Source: Granulicella sp.
GTDB lineage: Bacteria > Acidobacteriota > Terriglobia > Terriglobales > Acidobacteriaceae
Direction: 5' to 3'
DNA: 63,891 nucleotides
NCBI GenBank assembly: GCA_003132145.1
Contig: PKWU01000009.1
Coordinates: 1-63,891, forward strand
Positions 22,573 through 57,060 of this stretch are shown one piece after another (the first letter of the stretch is position 1; the number at the start of each line of letters is the position of its first letter). A program made the position numbers and the translations under genes. Below the pieces are notes generated by a model. It searched no databases and was not told the DNA's origin. It worked only from the letters and a program-made list of their open reading frames with translations.

Positions 22573-23139
22573 ATGAAGATGTCGAAAGTGGTTATCTTTA
22601 CTGTCCTATCAACTTTAGCTGGAACACTGACGTTACAAGCCGGAACCAACAAGACTGCCGATTCGTCAGCGCTAGCAATTGCGCCGATTTACGACCTGAC
22701 AGGTGTTTTAGGTAGTGATTCTTACGGAGATACCGGCAGTTTCACAGACTCGCATGGTAATACGACAAGCGTCACCTGTGTCGGCTCGAATTGCTTCGAG
22801 GGGGTCGGAATGAGCTATTGGGTCACACTTCCCGATAAGACAAGACTGTATTTTCCTCCAGATAGGGGCGTAGACCTTGATCATTGGACAGGTCGTGATG
22901 GTTATGGAACATCTATGATATATCCAATCGCCGATGCACATTTAGAGAATCTCCAGTTCCAGGGACAGACAATTAGCTTTCGATTCCGTACAGCCGCTGT
23001 GGTTGTGGGTGAGGCTGGAGGTATCACAGACCCGATCAAGGGTCACAAGGAACGCTTCATTTGCGTTCCTTTGAAGATTGACCTGAACGGAAAGACGAGA
23101 GTAGCCTATGCTAAGAGCCACAGCATGGAGGCTTGTTAA
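22573..23139 (+). CDS. Exported hypothetical protein
   Basis: A 188-aa protein with a signal peptide (VVIFTVLSTLAGTLTLQA). The mature part is beta-rich with four Cys, including CVGSNC near residue 75. The codon usage is clearly less GC-biased than in the surrounding genes, which suggests recent acquisition. Family not recognised. Confidence 0.7.
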   Translation: MKMSKVVIFTVLSTLAGTLTLQAGTNKTADSSALAIAPIYDLTGVLGSDSYGDTGSFTDSHGNTTSVTCVGSNCFEGVGMSYWVTLPDKTRLYFPPDRGVDLDHWTGRDGYGTSMIYPIADAHLENLQFQGQTISFRFRTAAVVVGEAGGITDPIKGHKERFICVPLKIDLNGKTRVAYAKSHSMEAC

Positions 23140-23157
23140 AAAATACTTGGTTAACTG

Positions 23158-23748
23158 ATGCCGCCCATCCCTACTATTGATCGCGTACAAGCAGAATGCA
23201 ATGCATTCGACGATGATCCATTCACCAAACTTGGCGAGCAGGCGCTGTTACAACTTCGTGAGCAGTTTCCCCGGAACGTAGATGCCTCCCACGTACTTTT
23301 AAAAATTCTCGCTCTGAATCAGCTCTACAGCACACGAATCAACTATGTTGATGTTGTTCCGCTTGCTCGCCACATAGCGGGACTTGGCATTGATTCGCTT
23401 CTCGACCAAGGATCACCACGAGCCGTCGATCTCATCTTCGTCTGCCCTCCCCTACCAAAATATTACTCATTCGCCACAAAGTTTTGTAGCTTGCACAATC
23501 CCAGTGCCTTTCCAATCTATGACCATTATGTCGATGAATGTCTCTGGTTGTACAAGAAACAAGATGGGTTTTCTGCGTTTGATCACCAAGACCTTTGGAT
23601 CTATGAGAAATTTGTCGATATAGTTGCCGCTTTTAGAAATCGCTACGAACTAAACCGTTTTACCTTCAGAGATATTGACAAGTTTCTATGGCTAACTGGA
23701 GAGCGAATTCTTCGCGAACGGATTGTTCCTTTAGCGCCGCAATCTTAG
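23158..23748 (+). CDS. Hypothetical protein
   Basis: A 196-aa soluble protein, 18 bases after the previous gene and with the same low GC. The pattern LLKILALNQLYSTRI, then YYSFATKFCSLHNPSAFPIY and later WLYKKQDGF, recalls small helical proteins with a DNA-glycosylase-like or DUF6308-like core; this is a resemblance only. No signal peptide. It ends just before a shared terminator. Confidence 0.7.
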   Translation: MPPIPTIDRVQAECNAFDDDPFTKLGEQALLQLREQFPRNVDASHVLLKILALNQLYSTRINYVDVVPLARHIAGLGIDSLLDQGSPRAVDLIFVCPPLPKYYSFATKFCSLHNPSAFPIYDHYVDECLWLYKKQDGFSAFDHQDLWIYEKFVDIVAAFRNRYELNRFTFRDIDKFLWLTGERILRERIVPLAPQS

Positions 23749-23822: not shown

Positions 23823-24848
23823 CTATGCCTTGACGACGACGCCGTCGACGACTTTGACGGGATCGAGGAAGGGCATGGAGGCGCGCAGCTTGGCGCCGAT
23901 GACCTCGATGGGCTGGAGGGCTTCGGCGGCGCGGATGCGGGTGAACTCCTTGCGGCCAGACTCGTTCTCGGCGATGAAGCGCTTGGCAAAGCTGCCGTCC
24001 TGGATCTCGTCGAGCAGCTTGCGCATGGCGGCCTTGGTTTCGGCGGTGATGATGCGCGGGCTGGCGACGTAATCGCCCCACTCGGCGGTGTCGGAGATGG
24101 AGTGGCGCATGTATTGCAAGCCGCCGCGATAGATAAGGTCGACGATGAGCTTGAGTTCGTGGCAGCACTCGAAGTAGGCGAGCTCGGGCTGATAGCCGGC
24201 CTCGCAGAGGACCTCGAAGCCGGTCTTGATGAGGGCGGAGACGCCGCCGCAGAGGACAGCCTGCTCGCCGAAGAGGTCGGTTTCGGTCTCCTCGGTGAAG
24301 GTGGTTTGCAGGACTCCGGCGCGGGTTGCGCCGATGCCCTTGGCGTAGCTGAGGGCGAGGGCGAGCGCGTGGCCGCTGGCGTCCTGCTCCACGGCTACGA
24401 GCGCCGGTGTGCCGCCGCCTTCGACGAAGACCTCGCGGACGCGATGACCGGGGGCCTTGGGAGCGACCATCGAGATATCGACGGTGGCGGGCGGAGTGAT
24501 GGTGCGGAAGCGGATGTTGAAGCCGTGGGCGAACATAAGGGTGACGTTGGGCTTCATGTTGGGCGCGATGTCGGCGTGGTAGACCTTGGCGGCGGTCTGG
24601 TCGGGGGTGAGGTTCATGATGACATCGGCCCACTTGGAGACGTTGGCCACGGTGCCGACGATGAGGCCAGCAGCGCGCGCGCGGGCGGCGCTGGGCGAAT
24701 CGGCGCGCAGGCCGACGCGGACATCGACGCCCGAGTCCTTGAGGTTGAGAGCGTGGGCGTGGCCCTGCGAGCCGTAGCCGATGATGGCGACTTTTTTCGC
24801 CTGGATGAGAGAGAGGTCTGCGTCTGCGTCGTGATAGGTCTTAGCCAT
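23823..24848 (-). CDS. ilvC: Ketol-acid reductoisomerase
   Basis: A 341-aa class I KARI that isomerises and reduces acetolactate and acetohydroxybutyrate. The NADPH-binding loop [19 protein letters not shown] is near residue 24-42, and the metal-binding acidic helices (NESGRKEF and [10 protein letters not shown]) are intact. Last gene of the leftward leu-ilv cluster, 59 bases after ilvH. Confidence 0.98.
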
Positions 24849-24907: not shown

Positions 24908-25507
24908 CTAGTCTTCGTCGGGGAGGGTCTTGGCGGCGGGCTTGGGTTTGGGCTTGGTGTCGGGGCTGCCGTTGGCCAGGCCGAGGGCCTTGAGGACGCG
25001 GCTGGTGTGCAGACCTCGGCGCATGGCCATGCGGCCGGTGCGAGAGATTTCGAGGATGGTGTAGCCGGACTCGCGCAGGACCTGGATGAGGCCCTCGATC
25101 TTGCTGGAGCCGCCGGTCATCTCCAGCATGATGGACTCAGGCGCGAGATCGACGACGCGGGCGCGGAAGACGTTGGCCAGCTCGAAGATCTGGGAGCGGG
25201 AGTGGAGGCCGGCGGGTTCGTTCGGCCCGGCGGCGACCTTGATGAGGCAGAGCTCGCGGATGACGGCTTCGGAGCGGCTGACCTCGTCGACGTCGACGGT
25301 GATCTCGAGCTTGTAGAGCGAGGCGCGGATGCGGTCGGCGGCGGTCTCGGGGGCCTCGCAGACGATGGTCATGCGCGAGGTGTCTGGCTGCTCGCTCTCG
25401 CCGACGGTGAGCGAGACGATGTTGATGCTGAGACGGCGGAAGAGCGAGGCGACACGGGTGAGGACGCCGGGCTTGTCTTGCACTAGAGCTACGAAGGTGT
25501 GGAGCAT
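24908..25507 (-). CDS. ilvH: Acetolactate synthase small (regulatory) subunit
   Basis: A 199-aa protein. The N-terminal ACT domain ([19 protein letters not shown], then [11 protein letters not shown]) binds the feedback inhibitor valine; the C-terminal ALS_ss_C domain follows from about residue 85. Its first 21 codons plus 8 upstream bases are perfectly repeated at 25910-25980 as the start of an unrelated gene. The true ilvH has the ribosome site GAAAGG upstream. Confidence 0.96.
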
Positions 25508-25515
25508 GGGGACCT
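25445..25515. repeat. 71-bp direct repeat, ilvH copy
   Basis: Identical over 71 bases to 25910-25980. It covers exactly 21 codons of ilvH plus the AGGTCCCC before the ATG. Confidence 0.95.
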
Positions 25516-25522
25516 TTCTATG

Positions 25523-25972
25523 CTACTCAGTGAATGAAAATGTTCCGCTATGGCAGGAATGGTGTTGGAAGCAGACCGTTGCTTTGTAGGGAGTTCCTTT
25601 TTGGAGGACAAATGTCTTCTCGGTTGCTGGAAAGGTTACGCGGTACTCGCCGTGGGCTGTATTGATGGATGAGGTCTGATTGACGCCGGAACTTAATTTG
25701 AAATTCCAAGTCTGAAAGGTGTCTACTCCTTTGATTGAAAACACTGCTGTGCTGGGCTGTTCTACTCGCGTCACCGCGAACGACTCGATGGTGGTCGGAT
25801 ATTCACCCAATGTCTCCACATGGATTACTGCTTGGTTCTTGCCGCTGTCAATCGGAAGCGTTCGATTACACCCCGAACAGATCACGCATAGTTCGACGGC
25901 CAAGATTACCGAGGCGACACGGGTGAGGACGCCGGGCTTGTCTTGCACTAGAGCTACGAAGGTGTGGAGCAT
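25523..25972 (-). CDS. Chimeric exported protein with IlvH-derived N-terminus
   Basis: A 149-aa protein. Residues 1-21 are identical to IlvH ([20 protein letters not shown] and Ser21), then the sequence changes to a hydrophobic VILAVELCVICSGC segment that looks like a signal or lipoprotein signal. The rest is a beta-rich polar domain with two C-terminal Cys (CFQHHSC). The stop is 15 bases before the ilvH ATG. The body has lower GC than the flanking genes. Function unknown. Confidence 0.8.
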   Translation of the reverse strand: MLHTFVALVQDKPGVLTRVASVILAVELCVICSGCNRTLPIDSGKNQAVIHVETLGEYPTTIESFAVTRVEQPSTAVFSIKGVDTFQTWNFKLSSGVNQTSSINTAHGEYRVTFPATEKTFVLQKGTPYKATVCFQHHSCHSGTFSFTE

Positions 25973-25980
25973 GGGGACCT
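25910..25980. repeat. 71-bp direct repeat, second copy
   Basis: Perfect copy of 25445-25515. Sequence differs at once on both sides: GTACCCCCG instead of GCATAGAA upstream of the ribosome site, and a new reading after codon 21. Confidence 0.95.
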
Positions 25981-26000
25981 CGGGGGTACGTGGTTGGCGG

Positions 26001-26483
26001 TTAGTTTGGAGTCTCGCCTTTGACCTTTTCCATCAAGGTGAATGGACGCTCGAAGAGGATCAGTTCGCCGGGCTTGGCTGTGACGCGGATGGTTCCGCAG
26101 GTGTTTTCCGCGGAGATTCCCTTGTTGAGGATTTCGGCGACGGAGTAGAGGAGCTGGAAGGACTGCTGGTTTGCGGGGAGGGTGCGGCAGCTTGCATTCA
26201 GATTTTCATCCAGAGCGATCTGCGCGTTGCCGTCGACTTTGAGGAGGACCGAGCCGGTTGCATCGGTGGGCCACAGATCGGCATCGACGTGGTTTCTGGT
26301 GGTCCAGACGCGGAGGGTTTCGTTCTTGATGGGGCGGCCGTTCTTTCCGTTGACGATGCGGATGTGGATTTCGACGGTTTGCGCGTGGGAGACGCAGGGC
26401 ACGATGAGGAGCGCGCAGAGCAGAGCGAGGCGGGTGAGATAGACGCGTTTGGGTTGGATGCGGGCTACGAAAGGGTGGAGCAT
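26001..26483 (-). CDS. Exported protein with a degenerate IlvH-like N-terminus
   Basis: A 160-aa protein. MLHPFVARIQPKRVYLTRLA aligns position by position with the IlvH start and is followed by a good signal peptide (LLCALLIVPCVSHA, cleavage before QTV). The mature part is beta-rich (VEIHIRIVNGKNGRPIKNET), reminiscent of prealbumin-like folds. The bases before its ATG (GAAAGGCCCCA) also resemble the ilvH ribosome-site region. Function unknown. Confidence 0.8.
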   Translation of the reverse strand: MLHPFVARIQPKRVYLTRLALLCALLIVPCVSHAQTVEIHIRIVNGKNGRPIKNETLRVWTTRNHVDADLWPTDATGSVLLKVDGNAQIALDENLNASCRTLPANQQSFQLLYSVAEILNKGISAENTCGTIRVTAKPGELILFERPFTLMEKVKGETPN

Positions 26484-26500
26484 TGGGGCCTTTCAAATTA
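26420..26500. repeat. Degenerate third copy of the ilvH-start repeat
   Basis: Aligns with the 71-bp repeat with a short deletion and many substitutions. GCTACGAA, GGTGGAGCAT and GGGG..CCTTTC are shared. Similarity to the ilvH copy extends into the sequence upstream of the ATG. Confidence 0.65.
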
Positions 26501-26530: not shown

Positions 26531-27094
26531 CTAATTTAAAGGGTCGAAATGTAAAAGCGAATCCTCTCCGTCGCTCATAATCTTGCAATACCAATCGTTC
26601 TTGAGTGGTGATATATCCATAATGAGATATTGTTCTCCTGCTCGATGATCGCCATATTCCTGAAGATGTTGAGTCAGTTTTTTTATTACTTCCGATTGGG
26701 TCAGTATTTTGCTGTAAGAGTCAAATATCATCAATTTGACGGACGCTTTAAAGCTAAGCAGCTTGTCAAAGTCTTCAGCTACTAATTCAGGGTTTCGACG
26801 TGGATCTCTTGAATTCCCCCATTCAATCTCACAAGCGAGAACCGTTCTGCTACCTGGTCCTTCTTGCCACCATATAAAATCCAGCATGAACTCCCTCATA
26901 CCCTGCCTGTCTGTGTAGATGGGTACTAAGTCGAATTCATGCGCTCTGAGGTCAAGCCAATACTTCACTGCATGCGTCCAGAGAGTAAACTCTCCACGCA
27001 CCTGCGGCACCTGTCCTGACTTGGTTAGACCTTCGACTTCACTGCGAAGAGAATTGGCAAATTCTGGAGCGCTAAAAGAAAACTCTTTCGACAT
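26531..27094 (-). CDS. Hypothetical protein, possibly nuclease-fold
   Basis: A 187-aa soluble protein. Residues about 75-110 contain FMLDFIWW, then TVLACEIEWGN, and later EDFDKLLSFKASVKLMIFD. The D...E-x-E order resembles the core of PD-(D/E)xK-like proteins, but the usual lysine is absent, so this is only a suggestion. The ATG at 27094 is chosen because an earlier one (27136) overlaps the upstream gene. Low GC. Confidence 0.65.
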   Translation of the reverse strand: MSKEFSFSAPEFANSLRSEVEGLTKSGQVPQVRGEFTLWTHAVKYWLDLRAHEFDLVPIYTDRQGMREFMLDFIWWQEGPGSRTVLACEIEWGNSRDPRRNPELVAEDFDKLLSFKASVKLMIFDSYSKILTQSEVIKKLTQHLQEYGDHRAGEQYLIMDISPLKNDWYCKIMSDGEDSLLHFDPLN

Positions 27095-27098
27095 GAGA

Positions 27099-27773
27099 TT
27101 ATCTCGCTTGGCCTTGGGTGATGGTCGCTGCCTCAATCGCAGTGGTCGCAGTGGACTCTTCGACTTGCTGGCAGTAAATCTGTGATTGACCCATCGATTC
27201 GCACTTTGTTAGAAATGCTGACGATTCTTGCGGGCACCCTCTACTGATGAGTGTCCTGCTTGCTGAGGGGTTAGAAACATCATCTCGCGTGGGATCGGCT
27301 CTGGCTATCACACAGTCTTTAAAGGCTGTGACAGGGTCTTGTTTTTCGATGACTGACGCTACCCCCATGGCAGTGATCGTCATAGTTTCTGCCATTTGGT
27401 TGCAGTAGTCCGAGTCTCCCCCGAGCGACTCGCATCGTGAATGCCAGGCCTCCGATTCTCGTGGGCATTCTTTACTCATTAAGTCTGCGGCTGCATTCTT
27501 ATCGCCAACAACATACATATATGGGTTGGCTCTTTTAATTAAGCAATTCTTAAACGGCTCAGTGAGCGGATCGTTGTATGCAATGGCCGTTATATCCTCA
27601 GTGCTTTGCGAACTTTGTTCGCCGTTGTTGTGTGGAATTTCATTGATAGTACTGTTATCGTCCGAGGGCCTATCGCCGGATGAATGTCCAATGTAGGCGA
27701 TAGATATTAAAATCGCGCCCACAAAGAGCATGAAAATTGCGAGTTTTATATTTCGAGGATTAGCTGATCCCAT
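27099..27773 (-). CDS. Membrane-anchored protein with duplicated Cys-rich domain
   Basis: A 224-aa protein with an N-terminal transmembrane anchor (IKLAIFMLFVGAILISIAYIG) and a Ser/Asn/Gln linker. Two homologous units of about 65 residues follow, starting FKNCLIKRANP and FKDCVIARADP. Each has four cysteines in matching positions (NC, KECP/RGCP, RCESLG/KCESMG, YCNQ/YCQQ). An extracytoplasmic disulfide-bonded domain is inferred. GC is low. Function unknown. Confidence 0.75.
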   Translation of the reverse strand: MGSANPRNIKLAIFMLFVGAILISIAYIGHSSGDRPSDDNSTINEIPHNNGEQSSQSTEDITAIAYNDPLTEPFKNCLIKRANPYMYVVGDKNAAADLMSKECPRESEAWHSRCESLGGDSDYCNQMAETMTITAMGVASVIEKQDPVTAFKDCVIARADPTRDDVSNPSASRTLISRGCPQESSAFLTKCESMGQSQIYCQQVEESTATTAIEAATITQGQAR

Positions 27774-27856: not shown

Positions 27857-29653
27857 TTATTCGGCCTCGGGGAGTTCGATGAGGGGGTCGGCGGCGGGGC
27901 GGCGGACCATCTCGTGGAGGGCGGAGCCGGGGGCGATCATGGGGTAGACGCCGTCTTCCTTTTCGACCTGGAAGTTGATGAGGAAGGGATGGCCGCTGGT
28001 GCGCGCGCGGGTGACGGTGGGGATGACTTCGGCGCGCTGGCGGACGTGCGTTCCGGCGATGCCGTGGGCGGCGGCGAGCAGAACGAAGTCCGGCGAGAGG
28101 ATGGGCGTGCACTCGTAGTTCTTGTCGTAGAAGATCTCCTGCCACTGGCGGACCATGCCGAGGAAGCCGTTGTTGATGACGGCGATGTTGATGGCGATGT
28201 GCTCCTGCTGGATGGTGGAGAGCTCGGCGGCGGTCATCTGGAAGCCGCCGTCGCCGGCGATGACCCAGACATCTTTTTCAGGGCAGGCGAACTTTGCGCC
28301 GATGGCCGCGGGCAGGCCGAAGCCCATGGTGCCGAGGCCGCCGGAGGTGATGAGCGAGCGCGGCGTGTCGTGGCGGAAGTACTGCGCCTCCCACATCTGG
28401 TGCTGGCCGACGTCGGTGACGATGATGGTTTGGGCGAGGCGACCGGCGGCCTTGGCTTCGCTCCAGATGTCGTGGATGACGTGCGCGGCGTAGAGATGGC
28501 CGTTGTCGGGAAGGTTGATGATGTCGCGGACGCTGGCGTCGCCCTTCATGGCTGCGATTTCGCGGAGCCATTCGGTGGGAACCCACCCATCGCGGTGAGA
28601 CTGCGATGGATGGGGCACCCGGTCTAGTGGAGTGACGAGCGGCAGGAGGGTTTCGAGGACGGCGCGCAGGTCGCCGATGAGGGCGACGTCGGCGTGGACG
28701 TTCTTATCGATTTCGGCGGGGTCGATCTCGATGTGGATCTTCTTGGCGTGAGGCGCGTAGGTGGCGAGTGTGCCGGTGACGCGGTCGTCGAACCTCATGC
28801 CGAAGGCGAGCAGGAGGTCGGACTGCTGGATGGCGTGGTTGACCCAGGACTCGCCGTGCATGCCCATCATGCCGAGGGCGAGAGGATGGCCGGTGGGGAA
28901 GGCCCCGAGGCCGAGCAGAGTGCTGGCGACGGGGATATTGCGGCGCTCGGCGAAGGCGAGGAGCTGGGATTCGGCTTCGGAGATGAGGACGCCGTGACCG
29001 GCGAGGATGACTGGACGCTTGGCCGCGGCGATCAGCTCAATGGCCTGCTCGATGGAGTTGGCTTCCGCGCGCAGCATGGGGTGCGGGCGATGCGCGGCGG
29101 GCGCGGCGGCGGCGAAGTCGAAGGGCGCGGAGGCCTGCTGCGCGTCCTTGGTGATGTCGACCAGCACCGGGCCGGGACGGCCGGCGACGGCGATCTGGAA
29201 GGCCTTGCGGATGGTGGGTGCGATGTCTTCCGGGCGCGAGACGAGGAAGTTGTGCTTGGTGATGGGAAGAGTGATGCCGGTGATGTCGATCTCCTGGAAG
29301 GCGTCTGTGCCGAGGAGCTTGGAGGAGACCTGGCCGGTGATGCAGACGATGGGGATGGAGTCCAGCATGGCCGTGGCGATGCCGGTGACGAGATTGGTGG
29401 CTCCGGGGCCGGAGGTGGCGACGCAGACGCCGGTGCGGCCGGATGCGCGCGCGTATCCATCGGCCATGTGGGCCGCGCCCTGCTCGTGGCGAACCAGGAC
29501 GTGGTGGATGGGGAACTTGCGCAGCGCATCGTAGGTGGGCAGGATGGCCCCGCCGGGATAGCCGAAGACGGTGGTTACGCCCTCGCCGACGAGGGTGGCC
29601 CAGATGATTTCGGCTCCGGTGAGGGTGGGGATGTTCTGCGATTTGTTTGCCAT
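27857..29653 (-). CDS. ilvB: Acetolactate synthase large (catalytic) subunit
   Basis: A 598-aa ThDP/FAD enzyme condensing pyruvate to acetolactate or acetohydroxybutyrate. FGYPGGAILP, RHEQGAAHMADGYAR (catalytic Glu) and the ThDP motif VIAGDGGFQMTAAEL...NNGFLG are intact. ATG at 29653 follows AAGGAG; an earlier ATG at 29698 lacks one. A REP-like repeat at 28581-28622 is read in frame as part of a surface loop. The gene follows leuD closely. Confidence 0.96.
   Translation of the reverse strand: MANKSQNIPTLTGAEIIWATLVGEGVTTVFGYPGGAILPTYDALRKFPIHHVLVRHEQGAAHMADGYARASGRTGVCVATSGPGATNLVTGIATAMLDSIPIVCITGQVSSKLLGTDAFQEIDITGITLPITKHNFLVSRPEDIAPTIRKAFQIAVAGRPGPVLVDITKDAQQASAPFDFAAAAPAAHRPHPMLRAEANSIEQAIELIAAAKRPVILAGHGVLISEAESQLLAFAERRNIPVASTLLGLGAFPTGHPLALGMMGMHGESWVNHAIQQSDLLLAFGMRFDDRVTGTLATYAPHAKKIHIEIDPAEIDKNVHADVALIGDLRAVLETLLPLVTPLDRVPHPSQSHRDGWVPTEWLREIAAMKGDASVRDIINLPDNGHLYAAHVIHDIWSEAKAAGRLAQTIIVTDVGQHQMWEAQYFRHDTPRSLITSGGLGTMGFGLPAAIGAKFACPEKDVWVIAGDGGFQMTAAELSTIQQEHIAINIAVINNGFLGMVRQWQEIFYDKNYECTPILSPDFVLLAAAHGIAGTHVRQRAEVIPTVTRARTSGHPFLINFQVEKEDGVYPMIAPGSALHEMVRRPAADPLIELPEAE
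28581..28622. repeat. REP-like repeat inside ilvB, copy 9
   Basis: ACCCACCCATCGC, loop GGTGAGACT, GCGATGGATGGGGCACCCGG. Encodes RVPHPSQSHRDGWV in the acetolactate synthase frame. Confidence 0.9.
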
Positions 29654-29690
29654 CGTTGACTCCTTATGCTGCTGTGCTGATTTGATCTTG

Positions 29691-30326
29691 TTAGGCATTT
29701 GCAGGCCTCGGGGTTAGCCAGAACTCTTTGTCGTGGGCGGATTCGAATTTGTCGAGGGCGGCGGCGTGGCGGAGGGTGAGGCCGATGTCGTCGAGGCCGT
29801 TGAGCAGGCAATATTTGCGGAATGGGTCGATGTCGAATGTTGCGCTGAAGCCTGCTTCGTCGGTGACGGTCTGGGCTTCGAGCGAGATGGTGATCTTGTG
29901 CGCGGGGTTCTGCGTGCTGCGCGCGGTGAGCAGTTCGACGTCGGCTTCGGGCAGGCGGACGAGGACCATGCCGTTCTTGCCGGCGTTGGAGAAGAAGATG
30001 TCGGCGAAGCTGGGGGCGATGACGACCAGGAAGCCGTAGTCGGTGAGCGCCCAGGCGGCGTGCTCGCGGGAGCTGCCGCATCCGAAGTTCTTGCTGGCGA
30101 TGAGAATCTGCGCTCCCTTGTAGGCCGAGTTGTTGAGGATGAAGGCGGGGTCGGGCTGGCCTGCGTCTGGGCCTTCCTGGATGCGGCTCCAGTCATAGAA
30201 GAGGAATTCGCCGTAGCCGGTGCGCTCGATGCGCTTGAGAAACTGCTTGGGGATGATCTGGTCGGTGTCCACGTTGGGGCGCGGGAGGGGGACGGCGGCG
30301 GAGGTGAGAGTGTTGATGGCGATCAT
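29691..30326 (-). CDS. leuD: 3-isopropylmalate dehydratase small subunit
   Basis: A 211-aa swivel subunit of isopropylmalate isomerase. NVDTDQIIPKQFLKR near the start and NFGCGSSREHAAWAL (substrate recognition) are characteristic. It combines with LeuC. Spacing to leuC is 124 bases, filled with short GGAATGACAAAC-type repeats. Confidence 0.97.
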   Translation of the reverse strand: MIAINTLTSAAVPLPRPNVDTDQIIPKQFLKRIERTGYGEFLFYDWSRIQEGPDAGQPDPAFILNNSAYKGAQILIASKNFGCGSSREHAAWALTDYGFLVVIAPSFADIFFSNAGKNGMVLVRLPEADVELLTARSTQNPAHKITISLEAQTVTDEAGFSATFDIDPFRKYCLLNGLDDIGLTLRHAAALDKFESAHDKEFWLTPRPANA

Positions 30327-55830: not shown

Positions 55831-57060
55831 ATGGCGACGAACAGCGACACAGAGCGGGATGCGCTGAAGAGTGACGAGGTGGGGCGGCTGGGGTGGATGG
55901 CGCTGATGCTGACGCCGGAGATGGGGCCGACACGGATTGCGCGGGCGATGGAACGGCTGGGAGCGAATGCTTCCGGTGAGGAGGAGCGTGCATTTCGCGG
56001 GGCGGAGCGGGTGTTCGAGGCTTCGCTGACCGAGCTGGAGGCTGCTGGGATGCCGGCGCAGGCGGCGCAGTTTGTCAGCGATGGGAGGGCGCGGGCGGCG
56101 GCGGAGAAAGAGGCGAAGCAGGTCGCGGAGGCGGGTGGATTTTATCTGACGCGCGAGGATGAGGATTATCCGGGAAGGCTGCTGAATATCTACGATCCGC
56201 CGGCGGTGCTGTGGGTGCGCGGAGATGCGAAGCTGCTGGAGCGACCGGGGATTGCGGTGGTGGGGACGCGGCATCCTACTCCGTATGGGTTGGGGATGGC
56301 GGAGATGCTGTCGCGCGACCTGGCGAATAGAAGGATGACGATCCTGAGCGGGATGGCGCGCGGGGTGGACGCGGCGGCGCACAAGGGCGCGCTGGATGCG
56401 GGCGGCAAGACGGTGGCGGTATGGGGGACGGGGATCGATGTGGTGTATCCCAAGGAGAATAAAAAGCTGGCGGAGCGGATTGTGGCGAGCGGCGGGGCGA
56501 TTGTGAGCGAGCTTCCGCTGGGGACTTTTCCCGCGCCGCAGAACTTTCCTCTGCGCAACCGGATTTTGAGCGGGATGAGCGTGGGCGTGCTGGTGGTGGA
56601 GGGCGGCGAGTACAGCGGCACACGGATCACGGCGCGCTGCGCGATGGAGCAGAACAGGGATGTGTACGCGGTGCCGGGCAATGTGACCAACAAGATTGCG
56701 TGGGGGCCGAATACGCTGATCAAGCAGGGAGCGAAGCTGACCGCGACGTGGGAGGACATCTGGGAGGACCTGCCGACACAGATCCGGTTGCAACTGGAAG
56801 AGGAGATGGAGGCGGCGGGGCAGATTGAATCGAAGACGGGCGGGAGTGCATCTCTGTTTGAAGACGAGAAGCCGATGCCGGAGGCTGAGCGGGTGGTGCT
56901 GGAGAAGCTGCGGCGCGATGAGTCGGTGCAACTGGACGAGCTGATCGAAGGGCTGGAAGGAACGCTGGGGTCGGCGGAGATCTTTACGGCGCTGTTCGAG
57001 TTGGAGCTGAATGGGCGGGTGAAGCAGATGCCGGGAAAGAATTACGTGCGGTGCTTCTGA
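55831..57060 (+). CDS. dprA: DNA-processing protein DprA
   Basis: A 409-aa protein that loads RecA on incoming single-stranded DNA in natural transformation. The Rossmann-like core shows VVGTRHPTPYG, SGMARGVDAAAHKGAL and GTGIDVVYPKENKKLA, then FPLRNRILSGMSVGVLVVE. The C-terminal winged helix (DELIEGLEGTLG) is present. It is followed by topA, a common arrangement. Confidence 0.95.
   Translation: MATNSDTERDALKSDEVGRLGWMALMLTPEMGPTRIARAMERLGANASGEEERAFRGAERVFEASLTELEAAGMPAQAAQFVSDGRARAAAEKEAKQVAEAGGFYLTREDEDYPGRLLNIYDPPAVLWVRGDAKLLERPGIAVVGTRHPTPYGLGMAEMLSRDLANRRMTILSGMARGVDAAAHKGALDAGGKTVAVWGTGIDVVYPKENKKLAERIVASGGAIVSELPLGTFPAPQNFPLRNRILSGMSVGVLVVEGGEYSGTRITARCAMEQNRDVYAVPGNVTNKIAWGPNTLIKQGAKLTATWEDIWEDLPTQIRLQLEEEMEAAGQIESKTGGSASLFEDEKPMPEAERVVLEKLRRDESVQLDELIEGLEGTLGSAEIFTALFELELNGRVKQMPGKNYVRCF

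Follow-up and report, generated by a model that had tools for sequence, protein, structure and literature searches.

Copies of the ilvH start front short genes between ilvB and ilvH in Granulicella and its relatives

We analyzed a stretch of 63,891 nucleotides (hereafter, the window) from Granulicella sp. (GenBank assembly GCA_003132145.1, contig PKWU01000009.1), whose genome assembly comprises 89 contigs. The genes ilvB, ilvH and ilvC lie in this order on the minus strand, and short ORFs, two of which we call cargo A and cargo X, occupy the interval between ilvB and ilvH. Loci and contigs used for comparison are numbered with L and genomes with G (the genome of the window being G000), and left and right follow the minus strand. 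The features are as follows.

23823–24848, minus strand: ilvC, the next gene downstream of ilvH (an ORF, named by sequence look); its start carries a like insertion in L085.
24908–25507, minus strand: ilvH, acetolactate synthase small subunit, intact, 199 aa (ORF; Pfam ALS_ss_C, 6.7e-23, and ACT_AHAS_ss, 3.3e-15).
25445–25515, minus strand: right copy of the 71-bp repeat, AGGTCCCC plus ilvH codons 1–21 (repeat search).
25516–25909, minus strand: 394-bp insert between both perfect copies, 49% GC versus 67% in ilvH (empty site in L032; composition).
25523–25972, minus strand: cargo X, 149 aa, IlvH residues 1–21 in frame with a lipoprotein-like body (ORF; leaderless homologues in L128 and L129).
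25910–25980, minus strand: left copy of the 71-bp repeat, within the ancestral upstream context of ilvH (repeat search; comparison with L032).
25981–26000, minus strand: spacer from cargo A to the left copy, the same as the cargo A–ilvH spacer of L032 (comparison with L032).
26001–26483, minus strand: cargo A, 160 aa, secreted-looking, a predicted beta sandwich with a diverged IlvH leader (ORF; model).
26421–26491, minus strand: diverged third copy of the ilvH start, 69% identical over 71 bp (repeat search; a related leader occurs in G027, L124).
26531–27136, minus strand: ORF in the ilvB–ilvH interval, 201 aa, 45% GC, no family above the cut-off.
27099–27773, minus strand: ORF in the ilvB–ilvH interval, 224 aa, 48% GC, no family match.
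27857–29698, minus strand: ilvB, acetolactate synthase large subunit, the upstream border of the interval; its true start may be further in (ORF; Pfam).

Read on the minus strand, the perfect (100%) direct repeat of 71 bp detected in the window consists of AGGTCCCC (8 bp) followed by the first 63 nt (21 codons) of ilvH. As an earlier sequence-only reading of this DNA had claimed, the repeat opens a lipoprotein-like ORF: the 149-aa ORF of cargo X starts with the middle copy, and the 160-aa ORF of cargo A with the third. The same reading described a diverged leader on the next gene upstream, and this was also borne out, the cargo A leader being identical to ilvH at 43 of 63 nt and 12 of 21 amino acids. 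Pfam confirmed ilvH and ilvB; cargo X matched only a fragment of ACT (residues 8–23, below the cut-off), and neither cargo had a family above the cut-off in Pfam or NCBIfam. By eye, the ends of the insert (GTAATC.. and ..CATAGAA) do not pair as terminal inverted repeats would. Elsewhere in the window, two ORFs of 188 and 196 aa with no Pfam match lie downstream of ilvC on the opposite strand (22573–23748, plus strand), possibly a further island, and a DprA-like DNA-processing domain is encoded at 56131–56742 (plus strand).

We compared the ilvB–ilvH interval across relatives, the check that the sequence-only reading had proposed, and found the site empty in L032: cargo A and the same spacer are followed by ilvH with nothing between, whereas the window has at this place the left copy, the 394 bp and then the right copy. 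Four further comparisons within the interval, and one at ilvC, show this anatomy again. L068 has an empty site in the place where L061 carries leader-fused cargo A and leader-fused cargo X, and L090 is without the cassette that L049 carries at a cargo leader (both L049 leaders have AAC at codon 4; the cargo leader of L090 and ilvH of L049 have ACC). In L079 and L084, an ilvH start remnant of ∼19 nt stands before a 101-aa ORF at a site that is empty in L086 and L072, and in L085 an 11-nt remnant stands before a GNAT-like ORF at a site that is again empty in L086. At the ilvC start, a 34-bp duplication surrounds an insert in L085, with L084, L079 and L086 empty; the copy is not in frame with a long cargo. 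In each pair compared, it is the left copy that retains the ancestral surroundings, and the right one is the complete gene, preceded by new sequence. The claim that cargo sits at the ilvH start, with ilvH whole and its start fronting the cargo, thus describes both the window and several relatives, and in filled loci ilvH is restored by a new start, as for integrase-driven 5′-end islands.

IlvH was present in 57 of 62 genomes of the genus, and of 123 confirmed ilvH loci, 80 named ones were retained. The near group comprised L032–L093 and the window (63 loci), in 58 of which the ilvB–ilvH interval was measured, the other five having no scored ilvB. The median interval was 824 bp in the near group, with at least 500 bp in 45 of the 58 loci, versus 64.5 bp in the distant loci (L094–L111, n = 18), where only one reached 200 bp or more. 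Swelling was less marked in the ilvH–ilvC gap, with medians of 144 bp (61 near loci) and 114 bp (15 distant loci) and a tail to 1977 bp. By sequence look, the interval contains secreted-looking genes of family A (in pairs within one interval in L043, L049 and L061), lipoprotein-like genes of family B, GNAT-like enzymes and RAYT-like ORFs; the IS200/RAYT-like ORFs lie on the minus strand of the interval in L049, L060, L067, L071, L074, L082, L089 and L091.

The front of the interval ORFs was compared with the IlvH leader of the same locus by a prefix-anchored protein comparison, in 67 loci with a usable interval and with 300 shuffles. Ten of the 67 loci (the window, L042, L061, L088, L043, L090, L046, L035, L079 and L049) scored at least 40, which none of the 300 shuffled leaders reached in the ilvB–ilvH interval; chance or low complexity was rejected as a source of the leader copies. 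Scores were weaker in L085 (P = 0.007) and L084 (P = 0.010), and those of L068, L060 and L051 (P = 0.027–0.033) were no more than 67 tests would give. At the DNA level (E up to 1e-3), 7 of the 80 named or window loci had copies of the ilvH start, and these seven were all among the near group's 62, as recounted on the 80 starts because an initial set of 114 included repeats of the same contig; the leader in L043, L046 and L035 was evident from protein similarity alone. The leader precedes families A, B and X and other ORFs, and 11 of the 14 tabulated ilvH-leader copies continue in frame into ORFs of 147–197 aa, a count with a small bias towards in-frame cases because the search requires an open leader frame; the other three (L079, L084 and L088) are out of frame with a long cargo. 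In a leader pattern search of the 62 genus genomes, copies without mismatch occurred, among the matches listed (to G041), only at ilvH or within ∼0.5 kb of it. Two of the matches with one mismatch away from ilvH were examined (G001 and G006), neither of which is a leader, and two similar ones occur in G008 and G009.

For all three loci with two tabulated copies (the window, L061 and L049), the copy closer to ilvH resembles it more over 63 nt, although the first 24 nt are equally similar in both L049 copies. The earlier view that one leader in the window is old and the other recent is probable, but it stops short of proof since gene conversion could also perfect the repeat. An assembly artefact, which that view had named as an alternative, is unlikely because leader copies with the same anatomy occur in named-strain records not labelled MAG (L042, L046, L061, L079, L084 and L085) and L032 has an empty site. 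In G027, contig L124 ends inside a cargo A gene with the old leader and L050 begins inside the ilvH leader (codon 10), a pattern that an assembler could produce on meeting a repeat.

We then read the depth of the joints. The least eroded copies stay similar to ilvH for the first 19 nt (L079, 100%), 63 nt (in the window, 100%) and 79 nt (L088, 91%) of the gene, and more eroded ones for 24–59 nt, with 11 nt in L085; sequence decay can shorten the similarity of old copies and mimic an early joint. Duplications around inserts measure 34, 71, 71 and 149 bp, unlike the constant target duplication expected of a transposon. The sequence-only reading had placed the insertions at a fixed point in ilvH, which is at odds with these depths, with the event separating L049 from L090, which used a cargo leader, and with the starts of ilvB and ilvC, which were also hit. 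A fixed attachment core is not supported, given that the joint depths differ and several genes are targets, though old copies may have been shortened by decay. The left joint varies in place, as expected of the non-homologous junction of homology-facilitated illegitimate recombination (HFIR), at which 3–10 bp of microhomology occur in most cases. In L061, codon 8 of the X leader is CAC, as in ilvH of the empty L068 (a two-base change), and L061 ilvH has CTG, as in L040, L038, L035 and L041; in this single case, a resident start appears to have been left behind and a donor start brought in. Both repeat copies of the window are identical, and such a donor/resident signature is absent from it. 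Of the 17 family B loci, 12 have a leaderless B gene that ends no more than 100 bp from ilvH, and L042 has a leader-fused B.

The search for other affected genes led to ilvB and to gene ends. In 818,606 bases around ilvH, we obtained 34 repeat pairs, 9 of which, in 8 loci, are ilv or cargo starts, and most of the others resemble dispersed repeats. In a more distant relative (L108, 6732–7966), the region downstream of ilvH shows several ilvC-like 3′-end copies in alternation with dispersed repeats. A survey of 2901 starts gave 73 matches, which include contig-end self-matches and GC-rich out-of-frame pairs and were used as a lead to ilvB only, which was then read base by base. The ilvB start is duplicated upstream around an insert in L056 (1255–1403 and 2739–2886; 149 bp, 95%) and in L071 (646–716 and 2014–2084; 71 bp, 90%), in both cases with the cargo not in frame. 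In 1,145,139 bases from three genomes, 22 repeat pairs remained after repeats of >3 copies or >350 bp were dropped. Three of these were read closely (L184, L212 and L218), and L212 and L218 proved to be duplications of gene 3′ ends around inserts. Both belong to the genome of the window and are mirror images of the ilvH case, in which the 3′ end of another gene is duplicated: L218 (7881–7948 and 8847–8914) has 68 bp around ∼0.9 kb, and L212 (9196–9271 and 11317–11392) has 76 bp around ∼2.1 kb. From these two cases, the duplication process is not confined to ilvH, although ilv starts look enriched by a rough comparison of differently filtered searches.

Cargo X is rare, being found in 4 of 398 genomes of the family; both occurrences in this genus sit at ilvH with the leader, and the genome of the window has one match. 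Its homologues outside the hot spot (L128 and L129) have no IlvH leader and begin with ordinary-looking lipoprotein signals, from which we conclude that the IlvH leader on cargo X is probably a derived state. No donor with a leaderless cargo X directly upstream of ilvH was found in the 398 family genomes, and no source of the insert was found in phages or plasmids by blastn, nor was a cargo X relative confirmed in viral contigs. Between the window and L061, dS of ilvH is 0.39, yet cargo X is just 34% identical, which argues for separate acquisition or exchange of X in the two. For cargo A, the window and L032 differ by seven synonymous and five non-synonymous changes in 122 codons, and dN of 0.018 versus dS of 0.085 suggests that it is under constraint. 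The models of cargo A and cargo X are beta-rich (mean pLDDT 77.7 and 72.1, respectively) and look like small beta sandwiches. A structure search with them gave no telling PDB match (best E 4.2e-3 and 2.9e-3, with TM-scores of at most 0.41 by query length among the matches listed), and we claim no function for either because these matches are weak. A tree of family A bodies was left aside; its branches are long, most of its forks are open, and the number of independent captures cannot be read from it.

We lean, with moderate confidence, towards one-sided homologous insertion, either homology-facilitated illegitimate or of the Campbell type, of DNA that carried an ilvH start, with subsequent retention of in-frame fusions; the route of recombination and the expression and export of the cargo are what we infer. 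On this view, the ilvB–ilvH interval in the Granulicella/Edaphobacter group would be a hot spot for the insertion of short genes, many of which encode exported proteins. Incoming DNA with a cargo gene beside an ilvH start would recombine homologously on the ilvH side and be joined non-homologously on the other, as in HFIR; alternatively, it may circularize and insert by a single crossover. Where the left joint fell among the initial codons of the ilvH already present, a truncated copy of this resident start would stay on the cargo, with a complete ilvH downstream; where it fell before ilvH, the cargo would arrive without a leader. The persistence of in-frame fusions would be explained by what the captured part provides, namely a ribosome-binding site, a start codon and the first portion of a signal peptide. 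The codon-8 pattern of L061 and the leaderless B genes beside ilvH are as expected of a resident left copy and a donor right copy. We counted in favor the empty and filled pairs, the differing joint depths, the AT-richer insert, the rarity of X, the 11 of 14 in-frame copies, the flanking duplications known from plasmid integration in Escherichia coli (PMC3240628) and the presence of the DNA-uptake proteins ComEC and DprA, both above the cut-off in G000, a weak indication because 10 of 14 control genomes were also above it in each search. Counted against were the missing X donor, the identical copies of the window, the loss of recipient DNA that is general in published HFIR, the wide distribution of competence genes and the out-of-frame copies (L079, L084 and L088; ilvC in L085; ilvB in L056 and L071).

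An older origin of the leader-cargo genes would explain why the window and L061 share the order leader-A, leader-X and ilvH: in an ancestral array, L032 and L068 would have lost the genes through direct-repeat recombination, and the perfect repeat of the window would reflect recent gene conversion from ilvH. The 71-bp repeat is a plausible substrate for such a deletion, which would give exactly the L032 site, but the divergence of X between the window and L061 at their ilvH distance is too great for simple vertical descent, the insert is AT-rich, and L068 would need two deletions to join its cargo A context with a cargo-X-like leader; we regard this explanation as unlikely. The variable duplications, together with the similar 68 and 76 bp at gene 3′ ends, would also follow if offset nicks in ilvH were filled in and a foreign fragment was end-joined between the copies. 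Ku is present in 50 of 62 genus genomes, including the insertion carriers G022 (L061), G046 (L049) and G015 (L079), but Ku (PF02735) was not found in G000 (96% complete), G026 (L032), G027 or G041 (L090), of which G026 and G027 are merely 83% complete, and the codon-8 signature of L061 is not expected from a staggered break; we consider such capture decidedly improbable.

The direct repeat that spans the start of a gene left whole recalls integration at dusA and of SXT at prfC, as outlined in the part of PMC8409611 cited here, and a small non-autonomous element might use the ilvH start as an attachment site with a recombinase supplied from elsewhere, the genome having 20 Phage_integrase matches. 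None of these 20 tyrosine-recombinase matches lies on the window contig (C5), consistent with the absence of a visible integrase already remarked on in the sequence-only reading; in addition, the joint depths differ, other genes and a cargo leader were also targeted, and the window insert is a single gene, which leaves site-specific integration very improbable. Tandem duplication within one genome, from the start of a cargo upstream of ilvH to ilvH codon 21 with loss of the parental copy, would give the same fusion without foreign DNA and fits the family-A pairs in single intervals. However, L032 has cargo A, not X, directly upstream of ilvH, the genome has a single X match, and the repeat stops 8 bp before the ATG without reaching into a parental 3′ end, so that we give this explanation the least credence of all.

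One-sided insertion has known precedents, and the ilvH case would be a variant in which the start is copied onto the cargo. According to the portion of PMC3240628 used here, HFIR has been described in Streptococcus pneumoniae, Acinetobacter baylyi and Pseudomonas stutzeri and was studied in Escherichia coli conjugation, and it generally deletes recipient DNA; in E. coli, most integrations of a plasmid homologous at a single end were flanked by duplications (PCR, 56 of 60 clones; 109–950 bp in 14 sequenced), which that study ascribes to a single crossover of a circular molecule. Pneumococcal merodiploids arise by transformation (PMC3784515, in part). HFIR as presented in that portion of PMC3240628 would share with the present case one homologous end and one non-homologous junction, together with a short foreign insert and no visible integrase, whereas here the events are natural and repeated at one locus, and the joint lies within the anchor gene, whose start becomes the in-frame front of the cargo. 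In the effector–immunity arrays of the Vibrio cholerae T6SS, as far as the consulted part of PMC5361080 goes, cargo is likewise added stepwise beside a constant anchor, older genes are pushed away, and HFIR is proposed with no integrase; in contrast, the anchor here is a metabolic gene, the cargo bears a copy of its 5′ end, and neither a toxin nor an immunity function was seen. The dusA and prfC islands resemble our case in their insertion in a gene 5′ end and the restoration of the frame with a new start, but the dusA/yicC islands are 22.8–37.1 kb with their own integrase (excerpt of PMC8409611), compared with ∼0.4 kb, no integrase match on the contig and differing joints here. Integron cassettes are similar solely in being single-gene inserts beside an anchor. 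Among the titles and abstract beginnings of the open-access matches listed, we found no description of ilvH-start insertion in Acidobacteria.

The case also indicates that an integrase-like footprint, in which a direct repeat marks the start of a restored gene, is no sure sign of an integrase. A new gene needs transcription, a ribosome-binding site and a start, and one joint appears to give all three while placing the cargo within an operon and leaving the neighbour intact. With the empty and filled relatives, the steps can be followed base by base, and these relatives constitute a natural experiment on how foreign ORFs come to be expressed and exported. More tentatively, and with some doubt on our part, the ilvH start may be a recurrent donor of starts: an integrase-free cassette array anchored on the 5′ end of a housekeeping gene, in which genes for exported proteins would obtain a native start codon, with its ribosome-binding site and the front of a signal peptide, from the joint itself and then diverge. 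If this is true, recurrent start donation would be a general route by which operons of Acidobacteriota recruit and translate foreign genes.
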